Origin: Gammaproteobacteria bacterium
GTDB taxonomy: Bacteria; Pseudomonadota; Gammaproteobacteria; Pseudomonadales; Pseudohongiellaceae
Direction of reading: 5' to 3'
Assembly (NCBI GenBank): GCA_002711845.1
Contig: PASF01000006.1
Span: forward strand, 186,001-250,000
Length of the DNA stretch: 64,000 bases
Within the stretch, counting starts at the first letter, position 1, and each line of letters begins with the position of its first letter. The notes below the pieces were generated by a model, which saw only the letters and a program-made list of their open reading frames with translations, searched no databases and was not told the origin of the DNA. Position numbers and translations under genes: made by a program. Below are positions 40,835-55,534 of the stretch, piece after piece.

Positions 40835-40897
40835 TGTTCATGGCCATCAGCCAGCACACTGACTTTTAACGCGCATTCAACGCCAGGTATTTGACGC

Positions 40898-41794: not shown

Positions 41795-41894
41795 ATCAGA
41801 CAGAAGGTTAAACACTGAAGACTGGTCAGGCCCGAGCGTCAATGGTTGGCGCCGAGAAGTAGCCCGATGAGTTGACAAGTCAAGGTAGCAAACT

Positions 41895-42230
41895 ATGAGT
41901 ATTCCTACTATTAGCAATACACCGACAACAGCAACGGACAATCGTAGCCCGGTTCGCCAAAGCAGCAACCAGCCAGCCACTGCTGACAACGGTGCCGGCA
42001 GTGGTGTTGACAAGGGTAACGTTGGCAACCAGGCGACCAGCCAGACGGATGCGGTGTCCATCAGCAGCCGTGCAGCTGACCTGCAATCGCTGGAAACCAG
42101 CATCAAGCAGCTCCCCGATGTTGATGCCTCACGCGTGAGTGCCTTGCGTGAGCAGATCAGCACCGGCGAGTACAGCGTCGACAGCCAGCGGCTTGCCGAC
42201 AAGATGCTGGCGTTCGAACGCAGCCTTTGA
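41895..42230 (+). CDS. flgM: FlgM, anti-sigma28 factor
   Basis: Small 111-aa protein. The first 55 residues are a disordered Ser/Thr/Asn/Gln-rich part. The C-terminal sigma-binding region has DAVSISSRAADLQSLETSIK, LPDVDASRVSALREQISTGE and YSVDSQRLADKMLAFERSL, all typical of FlgM. It holds FliA inactive until it is exported through the completed hook-basal body. flgN follows by 16 bases. Confidence 0.93.
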   Translation: MSIPTISNTPTTATDNRSPVRQSSNQPATADNGAGSGVDKGNVGNQATSQTDAVSISSRAADLQSLETSIKQLPDVDASRVSALREQISTGEYSVDSQRLADKMLAFERSL

Positions 42231-42246
42231 GCCTGATGGAAAATAG

Positions 42247-42723
42247 ATGAGTAACGAAGGCCTGCAGCAACTGCTGGAAAGTGACCGCAATCAGCTGGAT
42301 GCCCTGGCCGAGCTGCTGCAGGCTGAAAAAACCTGCCTTGAGCAACGCAACCTTGACCAGCTCAACACGCTGGTCACGCAAAAGCAGAGCGTACTGGCCA
42401 GCATCGAAAATAATGACCATGTCCGGCGCAAGCTACTGCAGCAAGCAGGGGTCCCCGCAGACCAGACCAACCTGACCCACCTCAAGCGCCTGCTCGGCAA
42501 AGGTGGCGAGAACGAATTCACCGCATTACTGGAAAGCATAGAGTCGCGTTTGCAGAAGTGCCGCGAGCTCAGTGAAGTCAACAGCGTCATAGTCCACCGC
42601 AGTCGCCTGAACACCCAGCGCGCACTCAGTATTCTTCGCGGCCCGGCGACCCTGGCGGACCTGTATACCAGTCACGGCAACAAACTTGGCGGCAGTGAAC
42701 AGCGGGATCTGGGCAGCGCCTGA
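42247..42723 (+). CDS. flgN: FlgN, export chaperone for FlgK and FlgL
   Basis: All-helical protein of 158 aa with LLESDRNQLDALAELLQAEK near the start and YTSHGNKLGG near the end, which is the FlgN pattern. It keeps FlgK and FlgL export-competent. It lies after flgM, in the usual pair. Confidence 0.92.
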   Translation: MSNEGLQQLLESDRNQLDALAELLQAEKTCLEQRNLDQLNTLVTQKQSVLASIENNDHVRRKLLQQAGVPADQTNLTHLKRLLGKGGENEFTALLESIESRLQKCRELSEVNSVIVHRSRLNTQRALSILRGPATLADLYTSHGNKLGGSEQRDLGSA

Positions 42724-42756
42724 TCCGTTCGTTGATCCAGACAGGTCACCAACCTC

Positions 42757-43470
42757 ATGGCAACACTTTCCAACAATGAACGTTACTACACGTCCGCGGG
42801 TGACATTTTCAGCGTGCTGCGTACCCTGCAGGCCGATCGCTCAAGTATCAGCATCCAGTTTAACGGCAGCGCCGGCATGCACAGCTCACTGGTACTGAAT
42901 GTCAATCTGAAGGCACGCACTTTTCAGCTGGACGAGTTCACCCCACGCGAAGCACACCGGCAGGCCGAGGCAGGTGCACCGTTCAGCATGCGCGCATCCA
43001 TCAACGGCATTCGTGTCCATGCCAAGGACCTTGTCATCAAGCAGGTTCGGCAGGATGCCGACGGCCAGTACTACGAATTGACGTTTCCCGATCGCCTGCT
43101 TTATCTGCAACGTCGCGACGCTTTCAGGGCCTGGGTACCCGGAACCCTGATGGTGGCAGCCCGGTGCATCAACAAAAAGCATCCCGACGCTTTGCAGGGA
43201 CGGGTACTGAACATGTCGGCCACCGGATTTAGACTGGTCGTTGAAGGCAAGGTTGATCCACCGCCCGGCATGCTGGAAGAATTCGCGCTGACCATTAAAC
43301 TGCCCCTGATTGACCACGAGCTGTCCTGCCCGGCCGAGGCCGTGTATGTCCAGTACCAACAGGACCGCAATCACACTGTGATGGGCTTCCGGTTTGGCAA
43401 CATGGGCCGCTCAGACCAGGTGGCGGTTAACCGCTTTGTCACCCAACTGCAGCGCGAAAGTATCGCCTGA
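42757..43470 (+). CDS. YcgR-type PilZ protein (cyclic di-GMP flagellar brake)
   Basis: Protein of 237 aa with an N-terminal YcgR-like domain (about 1-110) and a C-terminal PilZ domain (about 115-230). The cyclic di-GMP motif RxxxR is in LQRRDAFRAWVP and NxSxxG is NMSATG in VLNMSATGFRLVV. Proteins of this kind slow flagella when bound to cyclic di-GMP. It lies 33 bases after flgN and probably belongs to the FliA-driven flgMN unit. Confidence 0.9.
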   Translation: MATLSNNERYYTSAGDIFSVLRTLQADRSSISIQFNGSAGMHSSLVLNVNLKARTFQLDEFTPREAHRQAEAGAPFSMRASINGIRVHAKDLVIKQVRQDADGQYYELTFPDRLLYLQRRDAFRAWVPGTLMVAARCINKKHPDALQGRVLNMSATGFRLVVEGKVDPPPGMLEEFALTIKLPLIDHELSCPAEAVYVQYQQDRNHTVMGFRFGNMGRSDQVAVNRFVTQLQRESIA

Positions 43471-43476
43471 GCACCG

Positions 43477-44124
43477 TTACGGATGACCGGTAAGCGCCTG
43501 CCAGCCTGGCAATGATGCCAGCCGGGCCAGATCTTCCGGGCGGTCAACATCCCACTTCCGGGGCAGCTCGTGCCACGGCACACCCGCCTGGCGCAATCGA
43601 TCCCGGGTCTGCTGCAGGACCTTGGGCTGCCCCCAATCAATGTTCGCAAAGACAGCTGCCGTCGCCGCCCGCAGCCCGATCAGCACATAGCCCCCATCAT
43701 CGGCGGGACCCAGCACCACCGGTTTGCCAGCCGCCAGCAAGGCCAATGCCTGTGCGACATAGGGGCCATCGACAGATGGACAGTCAGCGCCAATCACCAC
43801 CACAAACTCGGCATCAGCCAGTGCTTCGCGGGTAGCATTGTGCATACGTTCGCCCAGATCCCGGCCATGCTGAAGATGAATGCGGGACACGCCCTCCAGT
43901 TGCCGGAAAAAGTCCTCGCTGCCGGTGGCCGAGGCCCAGAGCTGCAGAGGTGCCTGCGCAGCCCGGCTCAGTTGCTGCCAACCGTAACGAATCAGTTGCT
44001 GATGCAATTGCAGGGCCCCGGCCGCGCCCAGCACCGGCTGCAGGCGGGTTTTCACCTGCCCTGCAACGGGCGTTTTGGCGAAAAACAGTATCCGGGCCTG
44101 CGGGTAGCGATACGCCATGCTCAC
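43477..44124 (-). CDS. TIGR04282-type glycosyltransferase (DUF2064)
   Basis: GT-A-fold protein of 215 aa. It contains AKTPVAGQVKTRLQPVLGAA, the metal-site region VVVIGADCPSVDGPY and PVVLGPADDGGYVLIGLR, characteristic of the TIGR04282/DUF2064 family. The family is named after arsenosugar synthesis because of frequent linkage to arsenic genes, but no arsM or other arsenic gene is visible here. The GTG start overlaps the stop of the partner glycosyltransferase (GTGA). Confidence 0.87.
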   Translation of the reverse strand: MSMAYRYPQARILFFAKTPVAGQVKTRLQPVLGAAGALQLHQQLIRYGWQQLSRAAQAPLQLWASATGSEDFFRQLEGVSRIHLQHGRDLGERMHNATREALADAEFVVVIGADCPSVDGPYVAQALALLAAGKPVVLGPADDGGYVLIGLRAATAAVFANIDWGQPKVLQQTRDRLRQAGVPWHELPRKWDVDRPEDLARLASLPGWQALTGHP

Positions 44125-44870
44125 GGCTCCCGCTCCCGCGTCGCCTGATCGCGATCATCAGTGTGCCTGTCTGGGTGCCTGCCAGGGTGCCGGCCATAGT
44201 ACTGGGCATGCAAAGCGACCGGGCTGGCACCCAGAAAAAACGCCAGCCGCAGCCGCCACATCAGCCAGATCGTGGTCAGGATGCCATGCTGCTGCCAGCG
44301 GCGACTGGAACTGAGCACCGGCGAGCGCAGACAGACTGGTCGGGACATACTGCGCAGGGTCTTGCTGATCATCACATCCTCCATCAATGGCACGTCCGCG
44401 TACCCGCCAATCTGCTCAAACACCGCGCGTCGGACAAAAATGGCCTGGTCACCGGTGGCAACCGCGGTCACCCGCGAGCGCAGATTGATGGCGCCGGCGA
44501 TGACCCGAAAGGCCGGATGCTGACCATCAAGGCGCACGTCAAACCGTCCCCAGCACGTCGCGCCGTCGGCCAGCGCAGCCACTACCTGCTCGGCTGCGTT
44601 CGCGGGCAATGTCGTATCGATATGCAGAAACAGCAGGATATCGCCTGCGGCCTGCGCTGCGCCGGCATTCATTTGCCGGGCACGACCCGGCGCGCTGTTC
44701 AAACAGAGATCAACCTGGCCGCGGATTGCCTGAACGCTGCCGTCGGTACTACCGCCGTCCACGACAATCACCTGATGACCTTGCCGGCGCAGCGATTGCA
44801 GGGCTGGCAGCTGCCGACGCAGGGTTGCCACTTCATTCAATACCGGGATAATAATGCTGAGCTTACTCAC
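44121..44870 (-). CDS. TIGR04283-type glycosyltransferase (GT2)
   Basis: GT2 protein of about 249 aa: LSIIIPVLNEVATLRRQLPA, VIVVDGGSTDGSVQAI and ILLFLHIDTTLPANA, the metal-binding acidic site. This matches the TIGR04283 family, the usual partner of TIGR04282. I chose the GTG at 44870, which has AGGA six bases upstream; a TTG at 44894 is the upstream alternative. With its partner it probably decorates a small molecule or lipid; the acceptor is unknown. Confidence 0.86.
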   Translation of the reverse strand: MSKLSIIIPVLNEVATLRRQLPALQSLRRQGHQVIVVDGGSTDGSVQAIRGQVDLCLNSAPGRARQMNAGAAQAAGDILLFLHIDTTLPANAAEQVVAALADGATCWGRFDVRLDGQHPAFRVIAGAINLRSRVTAVATGDQAIFVRRAVFEQIGGYADVPLMEDVMISKTLRSMSRPVCLRSPVLSSSRRWQQHGILTTIWLMWRLRLAFFLGASPVALHAQYYGRHPGRHPDRHTDDRDQATREREP

Positions 44871-44986
44871 AAAAGGTCCTGGATCAGTGTTCAAAGGTCG
44901 CGCAACGGGTCATACCCTCACGTCGGGCAATTATGGCGCTTTTTCTTGAACAAAGGCTATGCGAACGCGAAATAAAGGAGGATAAT

Positions 44987-45061
44987 ATGCCGCCATTATT
45001 GCTTCTGATTGTCTTTGTCATCAGTGGAAATAAACTGGCTACTTTGCCGTTCTCTTCTTGA
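44987..45061 (+). CDS. Possible very small hydrophobic peptide (24 aa)
   Basis: An ideal ribosome site AAAGGAGG lies six bases before an ATG that reads 24 codons: MPPLLLLIVFVISGNKLATL and four more residues. The peptide would be one short hydrophobic segment. Its TGA (45059-45061) overlaps a TTG that opens the next frame (TTGA), suggesting coupling. It is too short to identify and could be a leader peptide. Confidence 0.4.
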   Translation: MPPLLLLIVFVISGNKLATLPFSS

Positions 45062-45321
45062 AAGACAGCGCGTTGTATTTAATGAATCTCGAAAATTTCT
45101 ATATCGTCGCCATTGATCCTGACGAGCCCGCCCTTCAGGTCAATATTTCAGGGCCTTATCTGACTCAGCAGGCCGCCCAGGCTGACCTGACGGCGGCCAT
45201 TGATGAGGCCGCCGCGCTGGATCCGAGCGCTCGTGCGTACGATTATCGTATCTGCAAACTGGCCTGCCAGAAACCTGGGGTGATTCAGCACATGGCTTGC
45301 CACGCAGCGCGGCCCGGTTGA
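45058..45321 (+). CDS. Small protein of unknown function (about 87 aa)
   Basis: The frame reads MKDSALYLMNLENFYIVAID and then an acidic, Ala-rich stretch with LTQQAAQADLTAAIDEAAAL and a Cys-containing end. I recognise no family. Two starts are possible: the TTG at 45058, coupled to the preceding small ORF, or the ATG at 45082, which has no ribosome site. It lies between the glycosyltransferase pair and the tRNA. Confidence 0.5.
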   Translation: MKDSALYLMNLENFYIVAIDPDEPALQVNISGPYLTQQAAQADLTAAIDEAAALDPSARAYDYRICKLACQKPGVIQHMACHAARPG

Positions 45322-45348
45322 GTCCTGCCCACCCCGCCCAACCTCTGC

Positions 45349-45354
45349 TATACT
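45349..45354 (+). promoter_or_regulatory. Possible -10 box of the tRNA-Arg promoter
   Basis: TATACT lies 40 bases before the tRNA and is followed by a GC-rich discriminator region (CTCGTCCGC), as is common for stable RNA promoters. No good -35 is seen at 16-18 bases. Confidence 0.35.
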
Positions 45355-45394
45355 CTCGTCCGCTATCCAACATCAGACCTTCGCCTTACCTTTT

Positions 45395-45471
45395 GCCCCG
45401 GTGGCACAGCTGGATAGCGCGGCCCCCTCCTAAGGGGCAGGTCGCAGGTTCGAATCCTGCCCGGGGCACCA
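45395..45471 (+). tRNA. tRNA-Arg (anticodon CCT)
   Basis: A 77-base tRNA with an acceptor stem GCCCCGG/CCGGGGC and an anticodon stem GCCCC/GGGGC with loop CTCCTAA, giving anticodon CCT (reads AGG). The T arm is GCAGG-TTCGAAT-CCTGC; discriminator A and an encoded CCA (45469-45471) complete it. No integrase or flanking repeat suggests use as an attachment site. Confidence 0.96.
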
Positions 45472-45513
45472 AAAAAACGACCATCACAATTCACTCCCGC
45501 CAGTGACTCCGTC

Positions 45514-46695
45514 ATGAACCCCAGCGCCGACCCTCCAAACAGTGCCGACCCCGGGAACAGCCCCCATCACGCCAACCTGCGCGCTGAACTGACACGACTG
45601 ATGCTGACCGGCTTGGTCGCCCTGGCGCTCGCTGCCGGGGTACTGAGCACCCTGACGGGCGCCATCAATGCCCTGCTGTATCTGTCTCTCGGTGCGACGC
45701 TGTGGCTCCTGGTCTGGCAGCAAAGTGACAGCCGCCTGACGCTGAACCGCAGCGAAGAGGCGGCGCCACTTTATGCTGAACTGGGCTGGGCCAACCGCAT
45801 GACAATCGGCCGTGGCTGGCTGATTGCCGCCACCGGCGGCTTGCTGGCGCTGCCTGACGCCCTGCACGCTTACCCGCTGTTGTTATGGATCGCAGCAGCA
45901 CTTTATTCGGTGGCCGCCATCCTGGATCGTGCTGACGGTTTTGTCGCCCGTCGCACCGGACAAACCACGCTGCTGGGCGCCCGTCTGGATACCGTATTTG
46001 ATGCCCTGGGTTTGCTGGTGGCGCCTCTGCTGGCCCTGCAGCATGGCAAGATTCACGCCTCCTACCTGCTGGTCAGCCTGGCCTACTACCTGTTTGTGCT
46101 GGGCATCAGGGTCCGACAACAGACCCAACAGCCAGTGTATCCGCTGACGCCCAGCCTGCTGCGCAGATCACTGGCAGGATTCCAGATGGGTTATATCGCG
46201 GTAGTGCTGTGGCCACCGTTCAAGGCCGACGTCACAGTGCCGGCCGGGTTTGGTTTCATGGTGCCGCTGCTTATCGGCTTTCTGGTGGACTGGCTGGTGG
46301 TCAGCGGACGCCTGACCGCACAACACCGTGTCAGCGCCTGGTTCCGCTATCTAAACACCATCACCCGACAGTCGTTGCTGCCGATACTGCGCGTCGCGCT
46401 GGTAGTGACTGCAGTGCTGGCCGCCCCCCGTCTGGATCCCACGGCGTCCTGGCCGCTGCTATGGGTCAACAGTCTGCTGGCACTGGGCGTGGCCATGATG
46501 GTGCTGGGGCTGGCGGGGCGGGCTGGCGCCATCATGGTGTTAATGCTGCTCGCCTGGACGGTGCCACTGCCGGTGATGTCGACGCCCTTCCTCATCAGCC
46601 TGTTCATCATCACCGCCATATTGCTGCTGGGTTGCGGACGCTTCAGCCTGTGGCAGGCGGACGATGACTGGGTCAATCGTCAGGATGGTGCCTGA
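45514..46695 (+). CDS. CDP-alcohol phosphatidyltransferase family membrane protein
   Basis: Polytopic membrane protein of 393 aa. The full CDP-alcohol phosphotransferase motif D-x2-DG-x2-AR-x8-G-x3-D-x3-D is present (D138, D141-G142, A145-R146, G155, D159, D163). Such enzymes move a phospho-alcohol or diacylglyceryl-phosphate group from a CDP-activated donor to an alcohol. The protein is much longer than typical PgsA/PssA (about 180-240 aa), with extra helices on both sides. It overlaps the flippase-like gene by one base (TGATG). The substrate is unknown. Confidence 0.87.
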   Translation: MNPSADPPNSADPGNSPHHANLRAELTRLMLTGLVALALAAGVLSTLTGAINALLYLSLGATLWLLVWQQSDSRLTLNRSEEAAPLYAELGWANRMTIGRGWLIAATGGLLALPDALHAYPLLLWIAAALYSVAAILDRADGFVARRTGQTTLLGARLDTVFDALGLLVAPLLALQHGKIHASYLLVSLAYYLFVLGIRVRQQTQQPVYPLTPSLLRRSLAGFQMGYIAVVLWPPFKADVTVPAGFGFMVPLLIGFLVDWLVVSGRLTAQHRVSAWFRYLNTITRQSLLPILRVALVVTAVLAAPRLDPTASWPLLWVNSLLALGVAMMVLGLAGRAGAIMVLMLLAWTVPLPVMSTPFLISLFIITAILLLGCGRFSLWQADDDWVNRQDGA

Positions 46696-47714
46696 TGCTG
46701 CGCTCGCGCTGGATAACCCTGCTGTTGTGGCCCATGGCACTGCTGCTGGTCGCCTGGACCTTGAGTCAGATGCCATTGGCGGGACTGCCGGACATGCTGG
46801 GCGCATTGACCGGGTACCAATGGCTGCTGTGGGCTGTGGTAAACCTGATGATCATTGCCATCAGCACCGAACGCTGGCGCCAGCTGGGCCGCATGCTCGG
46901 TGAAGCCCCGGGTTTCTGGCACATGCTGCTGATCCGGCAGGCCGGGCAGACTGTCAGTTTTATCACGCCGGCACCGCATTTTGGCGGCGAACCGTTTCAG
47001 ATATACTGGCTGGTCAGGCGACTGGGCATGAACATTCACCGGGCCGTGCTGTCGCTGGCGCTGGATCGGTTTTATGAGTTGTGGATCAACTTTCTGATGC
47101 TGCTGCTCGGCGTCAGCCTGGTGCTGCTGTTACAAACCAGTGACGCAGCCAACGGCCAGGGCAATGACTGGCAGCGCATACTGCTGTTGTTACTGGGACT
47201 GTTGGCGCTGCTGTCCATGGTCGCCTGGCTGCTGATCAGACAGCCTGTGCTGCTTTCCGCACGACTGGAAAAGCTCGGCGCCGGCTGGCTGAGAAGTCCG
47301 CGGCTGGCCGCCCTGGGCAATCACTGGCAGGTACTTGGCAGCGAACTGAGGACCGTCGTCAGCACACAGCGACCGGCGTTGCTGGGGGCACTGGGGTTAT
47401 CGCTGCTGGGCTGGGCACTGATGATCTTTGAGGTGTGGCTGGTGTTGACCTACTTTGGTATTACACCTGACGCCCTAAGCCTGGCGCTGATTCTGGTGGC
47501 GATGCGTCTGGCGTTGCTGCTGCCGCTGCCGGGTGGTATCGGCAGCCTCGAAGCCGCCGTGCTGTGGTCTTTCCAGACCCAGGCGCTGCCCGCAGATGCG
47601 GCGCTGGGCCTGATAGCCCTGACCCGCCTGCGTGATGTGCTGGTGCTGTTGACAGGTCTGCTGTGTTTGCGGGCACTGCAGGGCAAATCTGCACCGCCAG
47701 CGCCCGCCGCCTGA
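46695..47714 (+). CDS. Flippase-like membrane protein (LPG synthase TM / UPF0104 family)
   Basis: Protein of 339 aa with about eight membrane helices. The family segments TVSFITPAPHFGGEPFQIYW and ALLLPLPGGIGSLEAAVLWS are clear. Members include the membrane part of MprF and proposed lipid or glycan-lipid flippases. No aminoacyl-transferase domain is attached. Coupled to the CDP-alcohol phosphatidyltransferase, it may move the lipid product across the membrane (inference). Confidence 0.87.
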   Translation: MLRSRWITLLLWPMALLLVAWTLSQMPLAGLPDMLGALTGYQWLLWAVVNLMIIAISTERWRQLGRMLGEAPGFWHMLLIRQAGQTVSFITPAPHFGGEPFQIYWLVRRLGMNIHRAVLSLALDRFYELWINFLMLLLGVSLVLLLQTSDAANGQGNDWQRILLLLLGLLALLSMVAWLLIRQPVLLSARLEKLGAGWLRSPRLAALGNHWQVLGSELRTVVSTQRPALLGALGLSLLGWALMIFEVWLVLTYFGITPDALSLALILVAMRLALLLPLPGGIGSLEAAVLWSFQTQALPADAALGLIALTRLRDVLVLLTGLLCLRALQGKSAPPAPAA

Positions 47715-47738
47715 TCAGCCCGTAGCCACAACCTGCTG

Positions 47739-48116
47739 TCAGAATGCCTTTTTGTAGGCCGCCCAGCAGGTGGCATTTTCCCACAGTTTGACGTTCATGC
47801 TGCCGCTGCCCGGGGGCTTGATCGCGGCCAGCAGTCGCTCGCAGATAATGCGACTGAAGTGCTCGATACTGGGATTCAGGCCGGCAAACTCGGGCTTGTC
47901 GTTGAGCATACTGTCGCGAAAATCGGCCACAATGGCATCAAGTGCTGACTCGATTTCGACGATGTCGACCAGGTACCCATGTTGATCCAGCTCTGCGGCC
48001 TCAATACTGATTTCGGCAACATAGTGATGGGCATGCGGCGAGTTTTCGCTGCCCCAGTCACCCCCGACAAGATAGTGATTGGCAATAAAGTCTTTGGTTA
48101 CAGCGACGGTGTACAT
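47739..48116 (-). CDS. PTPS/QueD-family protein with Glu at the catalytic Cys position
   Basis: Protein of 125 aa in the T-fold 6-pyruvoyl-tetrahydropterin synthase/QueD family. The likely zinc ligands are His14, His28 and His30 (ANHYLVGGDWGSENSPHAHH). Where QueD has C-x3-HGH, this protein has E24-x3-HAH, so the usual nucleophilic Cys is replaced by Glu, as reported for PTPS-III proteins. It is therefore unlikely to be a standard QueD. It is the last gene of the minus-strand operon with the dehydrogenase, RibD-like and GTP cyclohydrolase II genes. Confidence 0.85.
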   Translation of the reverse strand: MYTVAVTKDFIANHYLVGGDWGSENSPHAHHYVAEISIEAAELDQHGYLVDIVEIESALDAIVADFRDSMLNDKPEFAGLNPSIEHFSRIICERLLAAIKPPGSGSMNVKLWENATCWAAYKKAF

Positions 48117-48161
48117 GGTGCGTCCTTCCTGAATAATGAATTTTGCTGGCTGCCTGGTGAA

Positions 48162-49205
48162 TCAGTCATACACGAATACCGCCTGCAGTACATCCTGACG
48201 ACCCTCGTGCAACAACTGATACAGCGCCGGCGCATTCTCCAGCGACTGACGATGGCTGATCAGCCTGTGCGGCTGCAAGCGTCGAATCATCTGCCAGGCT
48301 GTGGCAAACCGGCGTGCTTTGTTCCAGCGTCCGGTCAGGCCCGAGGCCAGCGTGCTGACCTGACTGGTCTTGATCTGCAGGCGATTGCGGTGGGCATTGC
48401 CTCCCAATGCGATAGCGGCGGATTTATTGCCATACCAGCTCCCAATGACAAGGCGGCTGTCATATCCGGTCAGGGATATGGCCAGATTGAGCGCGTCGGG
48501 CACACCACTGACCTCGTATACCAGATCGGCGCCGGCACCGGCCAGCGCCCCAGCCTGTAACTCTGCCAGGTCGGCCCCGGGGTCAAAGCTGGCGCTGGCC
48601 CCCAGGGTCAGGGATTGTTGCCGGCGTCCGGCCAGTGTATCCAGCGTGTGCAGGCCCGCCAGCGGGTGGCCTGCCAGCACGCCGGTCAGCAACAGACCCA
48701 AGACCCCCTGACCAAGGACTGCCACCTGCTCACCGAGCATGGGCGCACCGTCCTGCACCAGGTTGACCGCCGTCTCCATATTGGGCAGAAACACCGCGGA
48801 TTCAGTGTCAATGTCATCGGGTACCGGCATCAGCTGATCAGCGTTGGCAAGAAAATGCGACGCATGCGGCTGAAACGAAAACACCCGCTGGCCCAGCCAG
48901 GCTGCATCGACATCTTCCCCGGCATCAATCACCTCGCCGACACAGGCATAGCCGTACTGCAAAGGATAGGTCGACGGCGACTGCAGGGATGCCAGATTGG
49001 CGTCAAGTGCCATTTTATCAGGCAACTGGCCACGGTACACCAGCATCTCGGAACCGGCGCTGATTGCCGAGCACAGTGTTTTCACACGCACCTGCCCCGC
49101 GCCCGGCGACGGCAGGCTGACCGGCCTGACCTCTACCTGCTGCGGGGCGGTAAACCACAATTGTTGCGTCTGTATCACATTGTCGTTGGCCAACCTGTCT
49201 GTCAT
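48162..49205 (-). CDS. MDR-superfamily dehydrogenase lacking zinc ligands
   Basis: Medium-chain dehydrogenase/reductase of 347 aa. A GroES-like N-terminal domain (about 1-150) is followed by a Rossmann domain with VAVLGQGVLGLLLTGVLAG. The catalytic Cys region reads LCSAISAGSEMLVYRG instead of CGICGSD, and the GHE region reads YGYACVGEV, so zinc ligands appear lost. This recalls the BchC-like branch. It probably oxidises or reduces a hydroxyl with NAD(P). The start overlaps the RibD-like stop (ATGA). Confidence 0.83.
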   Translation of the reverse strand: MTDRLANDNVIQTQQLWFTAPQQVEVRPVSLPSPGAGQVRVKTLCSAISAGSEMLVYRGQLPDKMALDANLASLQSPSTYPLQYGYACVGEVIDAGEDVDAAWLGQRVFSFQPHASHFLANADQLMPVPDDIDTESAVFLPNMETAVNLVQDGAPMLGEQVAVLGQGVLGLLLTGVLAGHPLAGLHTLDTLAGRRQQSLTLGASASFDPGADLAELQAGALAGAGADLVYEVSGVPDALNLAISLTGYDSRLVIGSWYGNKSAAIALGGNAHRNRLQIKTSQVSTLASGLTGRWNKARRFATAWQMIRRLQPHRLISHRQSLENAPALYQLLHEGRQDVLQAVFVYD

Positions 49206-49936
49206 GCATGCTCCCCGCTGCTGGCGTTGTCCTGATTATCATATTTGACCTGACCCCACATGATCAGATCAGTGCCGAGCCTGTCGGTGAAAACCGGTGA
49301 AATGTGCGGCAAAGCAGTCCTGTCAGCAACGCCGAGATCACCCACTGCCTTGTAACCGCCCACCAGCCTGGGCGCCACTGTCAGCACCATGGCATCCACC
49401 AGCTGCTGTTGGAGAAAGCCGGTAATCACGTTGGCGCCTCCCTCCACCATCAGGCTGTTGATGCCGCGGCGCTTCAACTCGCGCAGGGCTTCGTGTAGTG
49501 ACACGCGCCCGGCGCTGTCACCGGGCAGGCGGATGATCTCCAGAGCGGAATCGTCGGGGCAAATCGCATCAGCGCTGGTCAGTATCCAGCAACGCTTGTC
49601 TGACAGATGACACAGACGTGCACCGGGCGGTATCCGGAAATGCGCATCGAGAACAACAGGTTGTGGATCGGGCCCGCGCCACTGACGGACATTCAGACGC
49701 GGATCATCGGCCAGAACTGTGCCGATACCCACCAGAATGCCATCATGCAGGCTGCGCAGATGATGGGTCAGTTGCATGGCCTGCTCACCGCTCAGGGCCA
49801 ACGGCTCGCCGGATTGCAGCGTAATGCTGCCGTCCCAGCTCTGGGCATAACTCAGGGTAACAAAGGGTCGTTCGCTGCCGGCGTACTGTGTACGCTGTGA
49901 CAGTAACCAGCGCTCAATTTGCTGGTTGAGGTTCAT
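49202..49936 (-). CDS. Stand-alone RibD C-terminal reductase domain protein
   Basis: Protein of 244 aa with the dihydrofolate-reductase-like RibD_C fold: RPFVTLSYAQSWDGSITLQS, DGILVGIGTVLADDPRLNVR and SLMVEGGANVITGFLQQ. There is no deaminase domain. The family reduces the ribosyl side chain of the pyrimidine made from GTP by GTP cyclohydrolase II, using NADPH. I chose the ATG at 49936, inside the end of the cyclohydrolase gene (23-base overlap), so the two are tightly coupled. Confidence 0.88.
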   Translation of the reverse strand: MNLNQQIERWLLSQRTQYAGSERPFVTLSYAQSWDGSITLQSGEPLALSGEQAMQLTHHLRSLHDGILVGIGTVLADDPRLNVRQWRGPDPQPVVLDAHFRIPPGARLCHLSDKRCWILTSADAICPDDSALEIIRLPGDSAGRVSLHEALRELKRRGINSLMVEGGANVITGFLQQQLVDAMVLTVAPRLVGGYKAVGDLGVADRTALPHISPVFTDRLGTDLIMWGQVKYDNQDNASSGEHA

Positions 49937-50612
49937 GCTTTTCCCGCGTATTGCGTTTACCGGTTTTTGCCGCCTTGTCGTCCGCCGGCAGCACCAGCAT
50001 GTGATCCATGCGCCGTGCCTTGGTCTGCAGGTAGGTCTCATTGTCCGCATTGATCGGTGCTTCCAGCGACACCCGCGCACTGATCTTGATGCCGGACGCC
50101 TGCAGTGCAGAAATCTTCAGCGGGTTATTGGTCATCAATTGCGCGGAAATGACACCCAGATCTTCCAGAATACACGCCGCCAGCGAATACTCGCGCTCGT
50201 CGGCTTCATGGCCCAGCATCAGGTTGGCATCCACGGTGTCGTAACCCTGATCCTGCAGATTGTAGGCATTCAGCTTGGCCATCAGACCAATGCCCCGGCC
50301 CTCCTGGCGCAGGTATACAATCACGCCCCGCCCCCGGGCCGCAACCAGCGCCATGGAACGCTGCAGCTGTTCGCCGCAGTCGCAGCGACGCGAACCCATG
50401 ACATCACCGGTAAAACATTCCGAGTGCACCCGTGTCAGGACGTCTTCACCGCTGACATCGCCCATACAGAACGCCAGGTGCTCTTTGTTGTCGATTGAAT
50501 TGGTGTAGTACACCAGCTGAAAATCACCATGCTCGGTGGGAATGCGGCCTGCAGTGACGCGCGTCACTGTGGGTCTGTCATTGCCGGTCTTGAGTGCTCT
50601 GATATTTGTCAT
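49914..50612 (-). CDS. ribA: GTP cyclohydrolase II
   Basis: Protein of 232 aa. The zinc site is C66-x10-C77-x-C79 (CFTGDVMGSRRCDC), followed by VIVYLRQEGRGIGLMAKL and LGVISAQLMTNNPLKISALQ. It opens GTP with loss of formate and pyrophosphate, giving the pyrimidine precursor of riboflavin. It is longer than E. coli RibA (196 aa) by short tails. Clustering with a PTPS and an MDR protein instead of rib genes suggests a second, specialised copy. I chose the ATG at 50612; no clear ribosome site is seen. Confidence 0.92.
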   Translation of the reverse strand: MTNIRALKTGNDRPTVTRVTAGRIPTEHGDFQLVYYTNSIDNKEHLAFCMGDVSGEDVLTRVHSECFTGDVMGSRRCDCGEQLQRSMALVAARGRGVIVYLRQEGRGIGLMAKLNAYNLQDQGYDTVDANLMLGHEADEREYSLAACILEDLGVISAQLMTNNPLKISALQASGIKISARVSLEAPINADNETYLQTKARRMDHMLVLPADDKAAKTGKRNTREKHEPQPAN

Positions 50613-50720
50613 AATTGGAAATACTACGGTGCTGCCCTGGTTTAGGCAAGCTGCCGCCTTCGGTTGATTGACCTGGTCCGTTTTACAATCTACGCTGGCC
50701 AACGCGTTCCGGTTTTCCGA

Positions 50721-50743
50721 ACCGTCACAAATACCATGACGGT
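50721..50743. promoter_or_regulatory. Inverted repeat, candidate operator between divergent operons
   Basis: ACCGTCA (50721-50727) and TGACGGT (50737-50743) form a perfect 7-9-7 inverted repeat in the 190-base gap between the GTP cyclohydrolase II operon and the GT4-methyltransferase operon. It lies six bases before the -35 of the plus-strand promoter. Size and symmetry fit a dimeric repressor site. Confidence 0.45.
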
Positions 50744-50748
50744 GCCAA

Positions 50749-50777
50749 TTGGTAAGCGCACCGCAACTGCCTACAAT
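50749..50777 (+). promoter_or_regulatory. Probable sigma70 promoter of the GT4-methyltransferase operon
   Basis: TTGGTA (50749-50754), a 17-base spacer and TACAAT (50772-50777). The start site would be near 50784, about 20 bases before the chosen GTG. Confidence 0.5.
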
Positions 50778-50802
50778 AGGCGCCCGATTGACCTGGACGG
50801 AT

Positions 50803-51864
50803 GTGTCATTGAAGCCTGAACTGTATTTTGTCATTCCCGGAGACCTGCAAACGCTGACCGGTGGTTATGCCTACGACCGCGCATTGATCCAGGCACTGGA
50901 AGCAGCGGGCATCAGGGTTCACCCTATTCCGCTGTCCGGCAAGTTCCCTGATCCCGACGCAGACGCGCTGGCAGATGCCGCCACCCGGCTGGCTGCCATT
51001 GCCGACCAATCGCTGGTGCTCATCGACGGGCTGGCCTACGGTGTCATGGATGCCGTGGCCGCTCAGGAACATCAACGCCTGAACATCATCGCCCTGTGTC
51101 ATCACCCCCTGGCGCTGGAATCCGGGCTGGATGCTGACACCCGCGAGCGATTATTCACCAGCGAACGCGGTGCGCTGCAACTGGCCAGCGCCGTCATCGT
51201 GACCAGCGACGCCACGGCCACGCTTTTAACTGATCGCTTTGGTATCGCCGCCGACAACATCACCGTGGCCCGGCCCGGCACCCGGAAAAATGCCTTTGCA
51301 CCCTGCCGGGGCAATCCTCCCTGCCTGTTGACAGTCGCCACCCTAACCCGGCGCAAGGGCCATGATGTTCTGATTGCTGCACTGTCACGTCTCACCCGTT
51401 TGCCGTGGCGAGCCCGATTTGTCGGCGGCGACCAGTTTGATCCGGACTGGGCGCAGACGCTGCGCAAGCAGGTCACCAGCCTGCAACTTGATGATCGTAT
51501 CGTGTTTACTGGCAGTCTCGATGAGCTGGACACCGAGTACGCAGCGGCCGATGTCTTTGTCCTGCCCTCGCACTTTGAAGGGTACGGTATGGTCTTCGCT
51601 GAAGCGCTGTCATTCGGCTTGCCGGTGGTGGCCACCCGGGCTGGCGCCCTGCCGGATGTGGTGCCGGCCAGCGCCGGGGTACTGGTGCCGACGAACAATG
51701 TGGACGCCCTGGCCGACGCCCTGCTCGATCTGCTGGGCAATCCGTCGCGGCGGCGTGAACTGCAGCAAGGTGCCCAGGCAGCCGCAGCAGATTTGCCGGA
51801 CTGGCACGACACCGCAGCCCGGGTGCTGCAGGTAATGCAATCGGTGGCAAGCCACCAACGATGA
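50803..51864 (+). CDS. GT4-family glycosyltransferase
   Basis: Protein of about 353 aa with a GT-B fold. The N-terminal domain (ELYFVIPGDLQTLTGGYAYD) contains the acceptor-side glycine-rich loop. The C-terminal domain has LLTVATLTRRKGHDVLIAAL and the retaining-GT4 E-x7-E motif in FEGYGMVFAEALSFGLPVVA. The acceptor and sugar are unknown. I chose the GTG at 50803 because the family start (LYFVIPGD) follows at once; the frame is open to 50749. The methyltransferase follows by 36 bases. Confidence 0.88.
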   Translation: MSLKPELYFVIPGDLQTLTGGYAYDRALIQALEAAGIRVHPIPLSGKFPDPDADALADAATRLAAIADQSLVLIDGLAYGVMDAVAAQEHQRLNIIALCHHPLALESGLDADTRERLFTSERGALQLASAVIVTSDATATLLTDRFGIAADNITVARPGTRKNAFAPCRGNPPCLLTVATLTRRKGHDVLIAALSRLTRLPWRARFVGGDQFDPDWAQTLRKQVTSLQLDDRIVFTGSLDELDTEYAAADVFVLPSHFEGYGMVFAEALSFGLPVVATRAGALPDVVPASAGVLVPTNNVDALADALLDLLGNPSRRRELQQGAQAAAADLPDWHDTAARVLQVMQSVASHQR

Positions 51865-51900
51865 TCACCCCTGTCGACAACAGACACAATGAGGGACAAT

Positions 51901-52701
51901 ATGAGCGGTTTTTCTGTTAGCTGGCTGGATTTACGTGAACCTGCAGATCATGCTGCGCGCGACCCGGAGCTGGTCAGCACGCTGGTGAGCTATCTGCAGG
52001 GCGATACTGACATTGCGCCGATCATTGTTGACCTGGGCGCGGGCACCGGATCAACGCTGCGGGCATTGACGGCCATGGGCGCTCAGCGCTGCGTCTGGCG
52101 GCTGGTGGACCATGACCCGGCGCTGCTGAACGAGGCCTTGCGGCGACATGGCCAGGCCGAGATCGTTGAGGATTACCAGGCAGATCTGCGTGATGTTGCC
52201 GCACTGCCACTGGGCGGTGCCGCGTTGCTGTCAGCATCCGCCCTGTTTGACCTGATTTCCGCCGATCTGGTCGATAGCCTGGTGGCCAGAGCACGGCAGC
52301 AATCGACCGTGGTTTATGCCGCCCTGAACTACGACGGCCGCACCCACTGGACGCCGGCGCATCCGCTGGACGCTGCCGTGCTGGACGCCTTCAACCGGGA
52401 TCAACACCGGGACAAGGGCCTGGGGCCGGCACTGGGACCGGATGCATCGATGACCATGAAAGCAGCACTGGAAAAGGCCGGCTACACCGTGCTAATGAGA
52501 GACAGCCCGTGGCAACTGGGCCCGGAGCAACAGGCGCTGGTGAGTGAACTGATCAGGGGCATTCGCGCCGCCGTGACCCACGGCTACGGCCTGTCCGACG
52601 CCGCACTTGCCGACTGGCAAACGTTCCGCTTGTCACACGCAGGCAGTGGTCACTGCCTGGTCGGACATATCGACCTGCTCGCCTGGCCCCCTGGCGTGTG
52701 A
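51901..52701 (+). CDS. SAM-dependent methyltransferase
   Basis: Class I methyltransferase of 266 aa. The SAM-binding loop is IIVDLGAGTGSTLRALTAMG, and the acidic residue after strand 2 lies in WRLVDHDPALLNEA. The remaining sequence does not match a family whose substrate I know. GAGGGA precedes the ATG at 51901. It probably acts in the same pathway as the preceding glycosyltransferase. Confidence 0.82.
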   Translation: MSGFSVSWLDLREPADHAARDPELVSTLVSYLQGDTDIAPIIVDLGAGTGSTLRALTAMGAQRCVWRLVDHDPALLNEALRRHGQAEIVEDYQADLRDVAALPLGGAALLSASALFDLISADLVDSLVARARQQSTVVYAALNYDGRTHWTPAHPLDAAVLDAFNRDQHRDKGLGPALGPDASMTMKAALEKAGYTVLMRDSPWQLGPEQQALVSELIRGIRAAVTHGYGLSDAALADWQTFRLSHAGSGHCLVGHIDLLAWPPGV

Positions 52702-52705
52702 TGCC

Positions 52706-53797
52706 ATGGCATACTCATTCCCCACAGGCAGTCAATCCCCGGGTGACGTCAGGTCTGCCCTGAGCGGCCCGATTCGTCATCAGCGTCGACTGGTTTACGC
52801 CATTCTCATCATCATGACGCTGTACTTTGCCGTGATTGGCAGTATCAATGTGTTCGTGTTCTCGGCCTATCCCGTTGCCGCACTGGACTACGCCGGCGCC
52901 ATCGGCGTCACACTGGCGTTGCTGTATTTTCACCGTTCCGGGCAACTGTTGATTGCATCCTGGCTGGTGGTGATCATCCTGATCGCCGTGCTGCTCAGTT
53001 TCATTCACCTGGCCGAAGGTCGCAGCTATTCAATCATCTGGGTGACGGTATTGCCGCCGGTGGCGTTTTTTCTGCTGGGCCGGCGCGCCGGCGCCTGGCT
53101 CAGCGGTCTGGTGTTTGTCTATGTCATCGCCTATGTGTATCTGCGCCTGCCCGACTGGCCAGCCGCCGAGGTGACCCTGGGCGCGTGGCTGAATATTGTC
53201 GAGGTGCTCACTGCACAGTGGTTTATCTTCCGTCTATATGAGCGCTCGCGCGCGGAAGCCTTCGCCGAACTTGAGCATCAGTCAATCACCGACAAGTTGA
53301 CCGGGCTGCATAACAGAAGCCACCTGGACACGCTGCTGCAACAGGAACTGGCGCGACACCGCAGCAACGGTCAACCGCTAACACTGGTGCTTTGCGATAT
53401 AGACCATTTCAAGCACATTAATGACGAATACGGTCATCTTACCGGAGACGCCGTCTTGCAGCAGTTCGCCGGTGTACTCACACGGCAGATGCGGGCCACG
53501 GATATCTGCGGGCGCTGGGGCGGTGAAGAGTTTCTGATCATCTGTCCAGGCACGGCGACTGAATCGGCAGCGGCCATCACCAGCAAACTGCGTGCCGCCT
53601 TTGCCGCCACAGCATTCAGCCAGGGCCTCAAGGTCACCGCCAGTTTTGGTATCGCCAGCCAGACGCCGCCGGACAGCCAGCGGTTCTCGGATCAACTGCT
53701 GCGGCGCGCTGATGATGCGCTGTATGACGCCAAGCGTCGGGGACGCGCCTGTGCCGTGATTGCCACCGCCGACGACACCTTTGAGGCCGTGCGGTAA
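52706..53797 (+). CDS. Membrane-bound diguanylate cyclase (GGDEF)
   Basis: Protein of 363 aa with about six membrane helices (roughly 27-175) and a C-terminal GGDEF domain (about 190-355). The active-site motif is GGEEF at 272-276 and the inhibitory I-site RxxD is RATD (263-266), five residues upstream as expected. LVLCDIDHFKHINDEYGH carries the metal-binding Asp. It should make cyclic di-GMP with product inhibition. It starts five bases after the methyltransferase but probably belongs to signalling, not to that pathway. Confidence 0.92.
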   Translation: MAYSFPTGSQSPGDVRSALSGPIRHQRRLVYAILIIMTLYFAVIGSINVFVFSAYPVAALDYAGAIGVTLALLYFHRSGQLLIASWLVVIILIAVLLSFIHLAEGRSYSIIWVTVLPPVAFFLLGRRAGAWLSGLVFVYVIAYVYLRLPDWPAAEVTLGAWLNIVEVLTAQWFIFRLYERSRAEAFAELEHQSITDKLTGLHNRSHLDTLLQQELARHRSNGQPLTLVLCDIDHFKHINDEYGHLTGDAVLQQFAGVLTRQMRATDICGRWGGEEFLIICPGTATESAAAITSKLRAAFAATAFSQGLKVTASFGIASQTPPDSQRFSDQLLRRADDALYDAKRRGRACAVIATADDTFEAVR

Positions 53798-53889
53798 GCC
53801 CCGGAAAATCCGCTTAACGCCAATGACTGAATTGGGCTATCATCGGCAGCCTGTGAAAAATCTGGCTGAAAACGTAAGGAGAGCTGGCC

Positions 53890-54372
53890 ATGACCCGCAC
53901 ATGTCACCGCTGGCCCATGTTGACCGGGCTGATACTGGCCCTGCTGACAGGGCAAAGCAGCGCTCAGGTTTTCCCGCAAGGCAACGGCCTGTCGATGTCG
54001 GGCGTGATGCAATTCGATCTGCATGTCCAGGTCGCCAGCTGGCAGGACATGACCATTGACCCGATGGAATTCCGCTTGCTGGCACAACGGGAATTTGAGT
54101 CTCGACTCAAGCCGCATGGTATCCGCCGTCAGTCGGCGAGTCGGGATTACCTGGTTTGTAAAATCAACGCCCTGCGCACCGACAATGCCACCATTGCCTA
54201 CACCACCACACTGGAATTCTGGGGATTAAGATCAACGGATGTGCACACCCTGTTGTGGGAGAACGGTGGGCTGGGCGCTGTCGCGGCTGCCGATTTCGAT
54301 GCTGACGGCGTGGCCGGAGAGTGCGCTGACACTTTTATGCAAGAATGGTCCAAGTGGAACCCGTCGTCCTGA
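53890..54372 (+). CDS. Small exported protein of unknown function
   Basis: Protein of 160 aa with a signal peptide (LTGLILALLTGQSSAQ). The mature part has MQFDLHVQVASWQDMTIDPM and an acidic DFDADGVAGECAD near the end. I recognise no family. GGAGAG lies before the ATG. A hairpin follows the gene. Confidence 0.7.
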   Translation: MTRTCHRWPMLTGLILALLTGQSSAQVFPQGNGLSMSGVMQFDLHVQVASWQDMTIDPMEFRLLAQREFESRLKPHGIRRQSASRDYLVCKINALRTDNATIAYTTTLEFWGLRSTDVHTLLWENGGLGAVAAADFDADGVAGECADTFMQEWSKWNPSS

Positions 54373-54380
54373 TTGACCAC

Positions 54381-54417
54381 CGGATCACGGCTTTACCTGG
54401 GTGATCCGATATGTTTT
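54381..54417 (+). terminator. Possible terminator after the exported-protein gene
   Basis: CGGATCAC (54381-54388) and GTGATCCG (54401-54408) are perfect 8-bp arms around a 12-base loop, followed by ATATGTTTT. The T-tract is short, so the strength is uncertain. Confidence 0.5.
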
Positions 54418-54453
54418 CCTGTGGTCACACACTAACTTTCAGGAGGACAAACG

Positions 54454-54879
54454 ATGAAAAAGCATGCCTCAGCGACTTGGCAGGGAAACCTCAAACAGGG
54501 TAAGGGCACCCTCAGCACTGAAAGCGGCGTACTGTCTGCCAACCCGTATGGGTTCAACACGCGATTTGAAGACACACCTGGCACCAACCCTGAGGAGTTG
54601 ATCGGCGCCGCCCATGCGGGTTGCTTCTCCATGGCGTTCTCGATGCTGCTCGGCGAAGAAGGTTTTACGCCGGACAGCATTGATACAAAAGCCACGGTGA
54701 CCCTGGACAAGGTGGATGACGGATTTGCCATCACTGCGGTCCACCTGTTGATGCAGGCGAAAATTCCCAAGATTGACGAGGCCGCCTTCCAGACCATTGC
54801 CAACAAGGCCAAGGCTGGCTGCCCGGTATCCAAACTGCTGAACGCGGATATCACGCTGGATGCAACACTCAGCAACTGA
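54454..54879 (+). CDS. OsmC-family peroxiredoxin
   Basis: Protein of 141 aa with the two redox cysteines of the OsmC family: C57 in AAHAGCFSMAFSMLL and C123 in KAKAGCPVSKLLNADI. These enzymes reduce organic hydroperoxides with dihydrolipoyl or thiol donors. The length is normal. AGGAGG precedes the ATG. Confidence 0.93.
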   Translation: MKKHASATWQGNLKQGKGTLSTESGVLSANPYGFNTRFEDTPGTNPEELIGAAHAGCFSMAFSMLLGEEGFTPDSIDTKATVTLDKVDDGFAITAVHLLMQAKIPKIDEAAFQTIANKAKAGCPVSKLLNADITLDATLSN

Positions 54880-54922
54880 GTCTTCCCAGCCCTGAGTCAG
54901 ACCTTTGTCAATCGTGGCACGG

Positions 54923-55207
54923 TCAGTCCTGGCGCGGTATGCCGCGCCAGTGCTTTAACTGCAGCACGCAGGCTGCGGGCACATGCACCAGACCAAAAGC
55001 GCTGATAAAGATCAGCACCTGGGCGAGCCCCTGAGCGCCGGTATACACAAACGCCATCACCCAGGCAAACGCTCCACCGATAACCACCAGCGCAAGCCGC
55101 GCCAGACGACGGGTTTTGGCCGTGTGACTGCTGAGCCGGTAGTGTGCCCAGGCTGCCGCCAGCGATAGCAATATACTCAATATAATCAATGATATAATAT
55201 TTAACAT
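54923..55207 (-). CDS. Small membrane protein of unknown function
   Basis: Protein of 94 aa with about three hydrophobic segments: MLNIISLIILSILLSLAAAW, LARLALVVIGGAFAWVMAFV and AQVLIFISAFGLVHVPAACV. AAGG lies eight bases before the ATG at 55207. I recognise no family. It is divergent from the 80-aa gene. Confidence 0.65.
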   Translation of the reverse strand: MLNIISLIILSILLSLAAAWAHYRLSSHTAKTRRLARLALVVIGGAFAWVMAFVYTGAQGLAQVLIFISAFGLVHVPAACVLQLKHWRGIPRQD

Positions 55208-55291
55208 ACGGGTTACCTTAAGGCCATTGGCCCCAAATGGCAAGCCGTGCGAGAATAGGGTTCGAGCCAAAACAATCGCAGGAGGCACATC

Positions 55292-55534
55292 ATGACATTC
55301 GACGATATGCTGCTAGACCCCGCCAGCGCTTTTGACGCTCCGCAGCAGGTGCTGGCCGACGGACAATTGAGCAGAGAGCAGAAAGTTCAGGTTCTGCGCC
55401 GATGGGAAGATGACGCACGGCTGTTGCTCACCGCCCAGTCCGAGGGGATGAAATCCGGTGACAGCGGCGGCGATGTTCTCGCCCGAGTGCAGAGCGCTCT
55501 GGAATCACTGAACGCCCCGGCCACAGACACCTGA
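55292..55534 (+). CDS. Conserved small protein of unknown function
   Basis: Protein of 80 aa with a helical core LSREQKVQVLRRWEDDARLL and an acidic start. The pattern SREQK..LRRWE is one I know from uncharacterised small proteobacterial proteins. AGGAGG lies before the ATG. It converges on rdgC with six bases between them. Confidence 0.72.
   Translation: MTFDDMLLDPASAFDAPQQVLADGQLSREQKVQVLRRWEDDARLLLTAQSEGMKSGDSGGDVLARVQSALESLNAPATDT

Follow-up and report, generated by a model that had tools for sequence, protein, structure and literature searches.

A recurrent gene cluster joining GTP-derived pyrimidine chemistry with sugar, methyl and lipid transfer may encode a dedicated pathway separate from riboflavin synthesis

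The closest described relatives of the locus reported here are the gene neighborhoods of PTPS-IV proteins (AGeNNT cluster 62, 561 sequences), in which a PTPS homologue with the published signature FGPAQ lies beside PF00925 and RibD_C genes (PMC5445326). PTPS-IV was stated to be involved in F420 synthesis, with reference to unpublished work (PMC5041015). In riboflavin synthesis of the fungal and archaeal order, a cyclohydrolase is followed by a reductase that acts before the deaminase (ScRIB7; PMC3631187), while in pterin glycosides, such as cyanopterin and limipterin, a GTP-derived ring is combined with the action of a glycosyltransferase (PMC5683033, PMC13259868), most biological pterins beginning from GTP cyclohydrolase I according to a 2026 review. 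We analyzed a stretch of 64,000 nucleotides, here called the window (positions 186,001 to 250,000 of contig PASF01000006.1, assembly GCA_002711845.1), from a gammaproteobacterium of the Pseudohongiellaceae and describe a cluster of eight genes at positions 45514-52701 that shares features with each of these systems. Genes of this cluster recur together in many genomes, and we tentatively read them as encoding an ancient biosynthetic pathway of its own, distinct from riboflavin synthesis, that would pass through a pterin ring made without GTP cyclohydrolase I.

All eight genes that an earlier note on this DNA had placed here were verified, with the families it had named, from the list of open reading frames, Pfam and NCBIfam. 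The features of the cluster are as follows.

45514..46695, plus strand: CDP-alcohol phosphatidyltransferase family protein, 393 amino acids (aa), Pfam PF01066 (E 4e-13), full motif DxxDGxxAR-x8-GxxxDxxxD
46695..47714, plus strand: flippase-like LPG_synthase_TM protein, 339 aa, Pfam PF03706 (E 2e-28)
47739..48116, minus strand: PTPS-fold protein, 125 aa, Pfam PF01242 (E 4e-25)
48162..49205, minus strand: zinc-less, BchC-like MDR dehydrogenase, 347 aa, acidic NAD-type residue 189, NCBIfam bchC as best model
49202..49936, minus strand: RibD_C reductase domain alone, 244 aa, without deaminase, Ser at the Lys151 site, Pfam PF01872 (E 9e-43)
49914..50612, minus strand: GTP cyclohydrolase II (RibA), 232 aa, TIGR00505 (243.7 bits against a cut-off of 205.85)
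50613..50808: divergent intergenic region between ribA and the GT4 gene, presumed from the gene arrangement to be a promoter region
about 50809..51864, plus strand: GT4 family glycosyltransferase, 351 aa if the start is the TTG at 50809, Pfam PF00534 (E 4e-34)
51889..52701, plus strand: S-adenosylmethionine-dependent methyltransferase, 270 aa, Pfam Methyltransf_25 (E 2e-4, below cut-off)

The layout given in the earlier note was recovered as well. The RibA, RibD_C, MDR and PTPS genes form a minus-strand run whose ends overlap or almost touch, with an overlap of 23 bases between RibA and RibD_C and of 4 bases between RibD_C and the start of the MDR gene; the CDP-alcohol transferase and flippase-like genes, both on the plus strand, have one base in common; and the GT4 and methyltransferase genes start divergently relative to RibA. 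For RibA and RibD_C, in-frame ATGs at 50612 and 49936 were chosen as starts from the sequence, the listed open reading frames being longer. The MDR and the methyltransferase fell slightly under their Pfam cut-offs (29.1 bits versus 31.8 and 22.6 versus 27, respectively), and both were recognized by alignments of relatives. No NCBIfam model scored above cut-off for the CDP-alcohol transferase, and the remaining 56 kb of the window gave zero matches to profiles of the eight families, although members of these families stand next to one another in many phyla, more than chance would give.

The cluster differs from each of the described systems. A distant version of it, found in other genomes (see below), has the FGPAQ signature of the PTPS-IV neighborhoods, whereas the window PTPS has GGDWGxENxxHxHxY and no FGPAQ, and the dehydrogenase, GT4, methyltransferase, lipid and flippase genes and the haloarchaeal GTP cyclohydrolase III go unmentioned in the passages on these neighborhoods in PMC5445326. 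With fungal and archaeal riboflavin synthesis it has in common a GTP cyclohydrolase of type II or III and, after it, a reductase that stands alone and whose residue at the Lys151 site is small, but it has a dehydrogenase, PTPS, GT4 and methyltransferase in place of deaminase, RibB, RibH and RibE. With the pterin glycosides it would share the GTP-derived ring, the glycosyltransferase and, in the reading proposed here, a methyl group, but it uses cyclohydrolase II or III plus a reductase and a dehydrogenase. A subset of the neighborhood, namely, PTPS-IV with PF00925 and RibD_C, is already in print, PMC5445326 and PMC5041015 being the nearest accounts. The earlier statement that no characterized pathway has this composition stood insofar as no paper naming the eight-gene set was found in the open-licence PubMed Central literature, to which our claim of novelty is confined, while part of the neighborhood had been published.

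Recurrence of the gene set was traced from the order to the phylum and beyond. When the MDR protein was searched against 145 genomes of the order, it was present in 16, the window's own included, and in all 16 both a PTPS and a GT4 gene lay in the same cluster. Five of these loci (the window and L025-L028) have all eight genes and constitute the close version. The other 11 (L029-L039), with MDR proteins 29-38% identical, constitute the distant version; GT4, methyltransferase and PTPS are each present in 11/11 of them, RibD_C, the CDP-alcohol transferase and a flippase-like protein of another subgroup in 10/11 each, and all eight families in 4/11. A second draw of 398 genomes of the phylum, searched with an MDR alignment at E 1e-40, gave MDR genes in 27 genomes at 29 places; 8 of these genomes had already been in the order search, and 19 were new. 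PTPS lay within the 4-kb locus at 28 of the 29 places, and GT4 lay within 4 kb of the MDR gene in 24 of 26 genomes, the window's own being excluded.

The MDR alignment was then run against 84,980 species genomes, which gave at least 584 relatives, and the best 80 loci, many of them on short contigs, were analyzed; all figures given below for 80 loci refer to this set. Phylum labels were taken from record titles, several of which are bin names and unreliable as taxonomy, RibA counts rest on profile searches, and pooled figures count two loci twice, L043 and L056 being the same as L025 and L026. PTPS was present in 76/80 loci, GT4 in 69, RibD_C in 62, the methyltransferase in 48, the flippase-like protein in 43 and the CDP-alcohol transferase in 38, and 21/80 loci had all eight families together. 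Among the 40 loci for which 20.2 kb or more of sequence was available, the corresponding numbers were 40, 39, 31, 29, 28 and 23, with RibA in 28. The PTPS gene lies downstream of the MDR gene on the same strand in 76/76 cases, with a median gap of 48 bases, and the pooled loci display 53 distinct arrangements, a figure inflated by cut contigs. The gene association survives rearrangement.

Among the matches listed, a Pseudohongiella bin supplied the closest named MDR relative, at 76% identity, other gammaproteobacterial records came next, and record titles with MDR relatives included Chloroflexota, Desulfobulbaceae, Calditrichia, Binatota, Cohnella, Legionella anisa and haloarchaea. On plasmids, for which 29 and 15 records had matches and seven regions were analyzed, MDR was present in all seven, PTPS, GT4 and the methyltransferase in six each, the CDP-alcohol transferase in four, RibD_C in three, and RibA and the flippase-like protein in two each. 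The plasmid cluster of Rhizobium sp. SL42 has all eight genes, and that of Streptomyces fungicidicus has all except RibD_C. The Haloarcula marismortui region has the CDP-alcohol transferase, MDR, PTPS, GT4, methyltransferase and a creatininase, while in the Natrarchaeobaculum region a GTP cyclohydrolase IIa and the dehydrogenase come before a hypothetical protein and a transposase. An aminotransferase, assigned by annotation to the alanine-glyoxylate family, comes after the Halomicrococcus cluster (L126:11591-12655). In phages, the window PTPS had no match. The co-occurrence that the earlier note had proposed to look for across many genomes was thus found, as was its grouping of the lipid pair with the pyrimidine genes, and the scattering of the genes that it had named as counterevidence was looked for and not found in the relatives examined.

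The host genome (3.59 Mb, 15 contigs) carries a complete riboflavin operon on another contig, C1, with ribD including its deaminase, a lumazine-binding riboflavin synthase, ribBA, lumazine synthase and nusB (Pfam names), and a second stand-alone ribA further along C1. Such a separate operon was what the earlier note had suggested looking for, and the opposite case it had raised, in which the cluster ribA is the only GTP cyclohydrolase II of the genome, does not apply. The cluster ribA and ribD_C are therefore extra, and there is no deaminase, RibB, RibE or RibH among the eight genes. The genome also encodes GTP cyclohydrolase I and, on the contig of the cluster, its own QueD with CxxxHGH. Given the riboflavin operon, GTP cyclohydrolase I and QueD elsewhere, the cluster is not obviously needed for flavins, folate rings or queuosine. 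CofH was not found, its single match reaching 19 bits against a cut-off of 374, and the CofG/CofH Fo synthase of the F420/Fo pathway was thus not seen by this search, which was made for CofH and not separately for CofG. The flippase-like protein is the only PF03706 member found in the genome, except for an identical copy on contig C14. Positions 38743-55490 of the window (16,748 bases compared) are 100% identical, in reverse orientation, to the end of C14 of the same assembly, which probably reflects assembly redundancy or a recent exact duplication.

The window RibA has the features of a GTP cyclohydrolase II, namely, a TIGR00505 score above cut-off, the Cys motif CFTGDVMGSRRCDCG, which binds zinc, and the active-site tyrosine, here in AYNLQD. 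The AYxLQ tyrosine is present in 56/57 cluster RibA sequences of the profile, the exception being a fragment. The Rhizobium cluster RibA has Tyr at this site, and the Streptomyces cluster RibA has Met; in SCO6655, a Tyr-to-Met exchange reportedly halts the enzyme at the formyl compound. A gene of the creatininase family, the family of the archaeal deformylase, adjoins the Met-variant RibA of Streptomyces. This correlation is not clean, since L033 and L037 have a Tyr-type RibA together with a creatininase.

In haloarchaeal loci, a GTP cyclohydrolase III, which is not homologous to RibA, was found in three of the five inspected: directly upstream of the MDR gene in Halogranum rubrum, which has a second copy elsewhere in the genome; after the methyltransferase in Halobacteriales archaeon QS_3_64_16; and, annotated as IIa, against the dehydrogenase in Natrarchaeobaculum. 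Replacement of RibA by a non-homologous cyclohydrolase is strong evidence that the ring-opened GTP product matters to the putative pathway. In a Methanosarcinales locus (L086), whose MDR gene is close to the end of the available stretch, there was no match to GTP cyclohydrolase III. In Chloroflexota clusters (L070, L073, L075, L088, L090, L104 and L116), RibA is preceded by an apparently membrane-bound protein of about 105-175 aa (family X00, in 13 loci in all), one member of which had no match when run against Pfam.

The cluster RibD_C scored below the NCBIfam cut-off for RibD (106.8 versus 156 bits). In yeast Rib7, Thr35 favors the 2-amino substrate, while the T35K exchange leads to an approximately threefold preference for the deaminated one, Lys being the bacterial residue at this site (PMC3631187). 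Lys is absent from this position, which corresponds to Lys151 of BsRibG, in 75/75 cluster RibD_C sequences (two loci counted twice); the residues found are S (42), T (10), A (9), Q (7), C (4), N (2) and H (1). The RibD of the host riboflavin operon has both a deaminase domain and Lys at this site, whereas the cluster RibD_C has neither of these two features of a riboflavin RibD. The catalytic residues of ScRIB7 were kept, Thr79 in 73/75, Asp83 in 74/75, and Glu180 and Gly182 in 75/75 each. By its residues, the cluster RibD_C would be a diamino-ribosylamino-pyrimidinone reductase of the fungal/archaeal type. The best solved relatives by sequence were 6p8c, a reductase of this kind, then 7lrh, an entry named RibD, and then more such reductases, while bifunctional RibD structures scored lower. 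Since Lys is missing at the Lys151 site, the enzyme is predicted to act on the diamino compound and to retain its guanine-like 2-amino group. In two named loci, RibA and RibD_C are in a single frame.

The MDR dehydrogenase has GYA, GYS or rarer forms at the position of GHE, the motif of zinc MDR enzymes, and has Asp or Glu at residue 189, the NAD site, in 51/51 close sequences and in 15/15 sequences of a mixed set (A2). The best NCBIfam model for the window, Rhizobium and Streptomyces proteins is bchC. BchC is among the MDR families that apparently prefer NAD despite having no zinc (PMC2976758). The cluster MDR resembles the BchC type in its lack of zinc motif, its NAD-type residue and this best match, but it lies far under the equivalog cut-off (65 bits versus 291 for the window protein), and no chlorophyll genes were among the neighbors seen. 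A model of the window MDR (predicted local distance difference test score [pLDDT], 92.3) had secondary-alcohol and polyol dehydrogenases as nearest folds, including butanediol, sorbitol, threonine and idonate dehydrogenases, with top matches at 14-20% identity.

The PTPS-fold proteins of the close version have a nearly invariant signature, HxLIGGDWGxENxxH[AS]HxY, which includes three zinc-type His and, spaced as in CxxxH, a Glu. In the window protein, this Glu stands in place of the catalytic Cys of QueD, a match that rests on its spacing from HxH because MAFFT places a gap beside it when QueD is added. The window ExxxHAH is thus neither the PTPS-I (QueD) motif CxxxHGH nor, having ExxxHxH spacing, the PTPS-III motif ExxHGH, and the PTPS-IV signature FGPAQ, present in 9/9 aligned distant-version sequences, is absent. 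Glu113 is invariant in 47/47 close sequences and aligned with a Glu of the host QueD. The window PTPS was modeled with a pLDDT of 96.6, and its nearest solved structure by fold was 3d7j, the Streptomyces coelicolor PTPS homologue SCO6650, which was also the nearest by sequence for a mixed alignment (A1). A gene of about 228 aa (family X06, tentatively read as ComB-like) lies between MDR and PTPS in Chloroflexota loci that include L071, L077 and L092; RibA and RibD_C were not found in the Chloroflexota clusters carrying it.

Concerning the remaining genes, GT4 and the methyltransferase are in one frame in 5/11 distant loci. The CDP-alcohol phosphotransferase motif, DxxDGxxAR-x8-GxxxDxxxD, is intact in the window protein and present in 47/52 cluster sequences, two of the other five being fragments. 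Near the 80 loci we found a sulfatase-fold protein, read as LtaS/MdoB-like, at 12 (Pfam Sulfatase above cut-off for one of six, below it for three and without match for two), YceI at 10, an FkbM methyltransferase at four and cytochrome b561 at three. YceI was also near 6/11 distant loci, and cytochrome b561 was near 2/7 plasmid regions. MdoG, an osmoregulated periplasmic glucan protein, was encoded no more than about 3 kb from the closest gene of the cluster in 6/15 order-level loci (L026, L027, L030, L033, L036 and L039; four by Pfam and two by clustering), while the MdoG of the host genome is on another contig than the cluster. These neighbors suggest a connection with the envelope, without fixing a role. 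Judging by the family names, the product may be glycosylated, methylated and lipid-linked.

The pathway we tentatively favor would run as follows. RibA, by analogy with its family, would open GTP to give 2,5-diamino-6-ribosylamino-pyrimidinone 5'-phosphate, a step that other lineages would perform with GTP cyclohydrolase III or with a Met-variant RibA and a creatininase-family protein. RibD_C, again by family, would act on the still undeaminated diamino compound, reducing it at C1' and leaving its 2-amino group in place. All later reactions are inferred. The zinc-less, NAD-type MDR would oxidize the C2' hydroxyl of the ribityl chain to an intermediate, a 1-deoxy-pentulose, that GTP cyclohydrolase I reaches through an Amadori rearrangement, and the 5-amino group would close on the C2' ketone to yield 7,8-dihydroneopterin 3'-monophosphate, bypassing GTP cyclohydrolase I; both the oxidation and the ring closure are proposed on chemical grounds. 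The PTPS-fold protein might bind the ring through the conserved Glu113 and work on the side chain, and GT4 and the methyltransferase might attach a sugar and a methyl group, respectively. In the weakest steps of the scheme, the CDP-alcohol transferase might couple either the product or a head group to a phospholipid, and transport across the membrane might be the task of the flippase-like protein.

Several observations weigh against this scheme. RibA was found in 4/11 distant loci and 50/80 loci overall, 16/80 loci have neither RibA nor RibD_C (two of these have GTP cyclohydrolase III), no cyclohydrolase was seen in the Haloarcula and Halomicrococcus stretches by annotation and RibA profile only, and one of the 29 MDR places, a second, weaker MDR of one genome, is without PTPS. 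Distances of RibA, RibD_C, PTPS, the CDP-alcohol transferase and the flippase follow those of the MDR (r 0.86-0.90), which fits co-inheritance, yet shared descent alone predicts this too, and for GT4 and the methyltransferase r was only 0.53; 0/200 permutations reached any of these correlations. Since the host has GTP cyclohydrolase I, a second route to the pterin ring looks redundant, and the zinc site usual for alcohol oxidation is absent from the MDR. Within the close version, the PTPS of one Chloroflexota subgroup carries Asn in place of the second His, and the distant version has neither the third zinc-type His nor the Glu; the versions may therefore differ in their PTPS reaction. SCO6650, the distant member with a solved structure, is reportedly without zinc and without PTPS activity. 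With the catalytic Cys missing from the window PTPS and these residues from the distant version, the action on a pterin side chain that the earlier note had given for this fold is a conjecture for the cluster proteins. The lipid step is the weakest part, resting on family names. Of the idea that the GTP-derived genes form one assembly, recurrence and the separate riboflavin operon thus spoke in favor, while the sugar, methyl and lipid steps were read from family names.

The lack of Cys in both PTPS versions and of one zinc-type His in one, together with the host GTP cyclohydrolase I, would also suit a single GTP-derived pathway whose product is not a pterin but a glycosylated, methylated aminopyrimidine or other heterocycle, toxoflavin-like or another fused ring, in which the MDR would oxidize a different position, or a sugar, and the chemistry of the PTPS fold would be new. 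Toxoflavin biosynthesis also begins with GTP cyclohydrolase II and RibD. Conserved Glu113 and the PTPS fold suggest a pterin-like ring, however, and an MDR adjoining RibD_C suits C2' oxidation; we consider this reading less likely than the pterin one. It is also conceivable, though improbable in our judgment, that the CDP-alcohol transferase/flippase pair merely adjoins the pyrimidine and sugar genes, each set being a system of its own: the two lipid genes occur in only 38 and 43 of the 80 loci and shift both place and strand, but each is present in 10/11 distant loci, there with a flippase of a different subgroup, both are carried by the plasmid clusters of Rhizobium SL42 and Streptomyces fungicidicus, and presence counts are lowered by cut contigs.

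The readings that involve known cofactors were set aside by genome searches and residue checks. Biosynthesis of F420 or Fo, which Zallot et al. 2016 (PMC5041015) assigned to PTPS-IV without presenting data, would agree with the FGPAQ signature of the distant version. It became very improbable, as the window PTPS is without FGPAQ and CofH was not found in the host, CofG not having been searched. Moreover, the cluster RibD_C is predicted to use a 2-amino substrate, unlike the precursor of Fo, which is built from a 2-oxo uracil. A second riboflavin supply cluster, or displaced riboflavin genes, would explain the families of RibA and RibD_C, but with a complete operon elsewhere, no deaminase, RibB, RibE or RibH among the eight genes, and a RibD_C without Lys and under the RibD cut-off, we give it next to no weight. 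Equally little speaks for a supply of folate or queuosine precursors, to which PTPS-III and PTPS-I contribute in other organisms (PMC5041015): the window motif is that of neither, the host has its own QueD on the same contig as well as GTP cyclohydrolase I, and the GT4, methyltransferase and lipid genes are foreign to these pathways.

As an extension of the pterin pathway, the product could be a membrane-anchored, redox-active pterin, made without GTP cyclohydrolase I, that is glycosylated and methylated and, attached to a phospholipid, reaches the periplasm by flipping, as a new lipid-linked cofactor or envelope head group, a proposal we regard as doubtful. In several lineages, a YceI/cytochrome b561 pair would make use of such a pterin, or else it would serve osmoregulated periplasmic glucans together with an LtaS/OpgB-like transferase; genes for all of these are recurrent neighbors.

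Outside the cluster, two minus-strand genes of arsenosugar type (TIGR04282 and TIGR04283, with a 4-base overlap) lie at positions 43477-44894, before it. A tRNA-Arg (CCT) at 45395-45471 ends 42 bases ahead of the first cluster gene and is a possible island boundary.

If the proposed reading is true, Pseudomonadota, Chloroflexota, Actinomycetota, other phyla and, in part, haloarchaea would have a pathway without an assigned product, whose genes annotation presents as a QueD-type 6-carboxytetrahydropterin synthase, a zinc-binding alcohol dehydrogenase and enzymes of riboflavin synthesis. It would provide a context for PTPS-IV and SCO6650-type proteins, could reveal a new lipid or cofactor, and would represent a second chemical way to the pterin ring, by reduction and then oxidation instead of an Amadori rearrangement.

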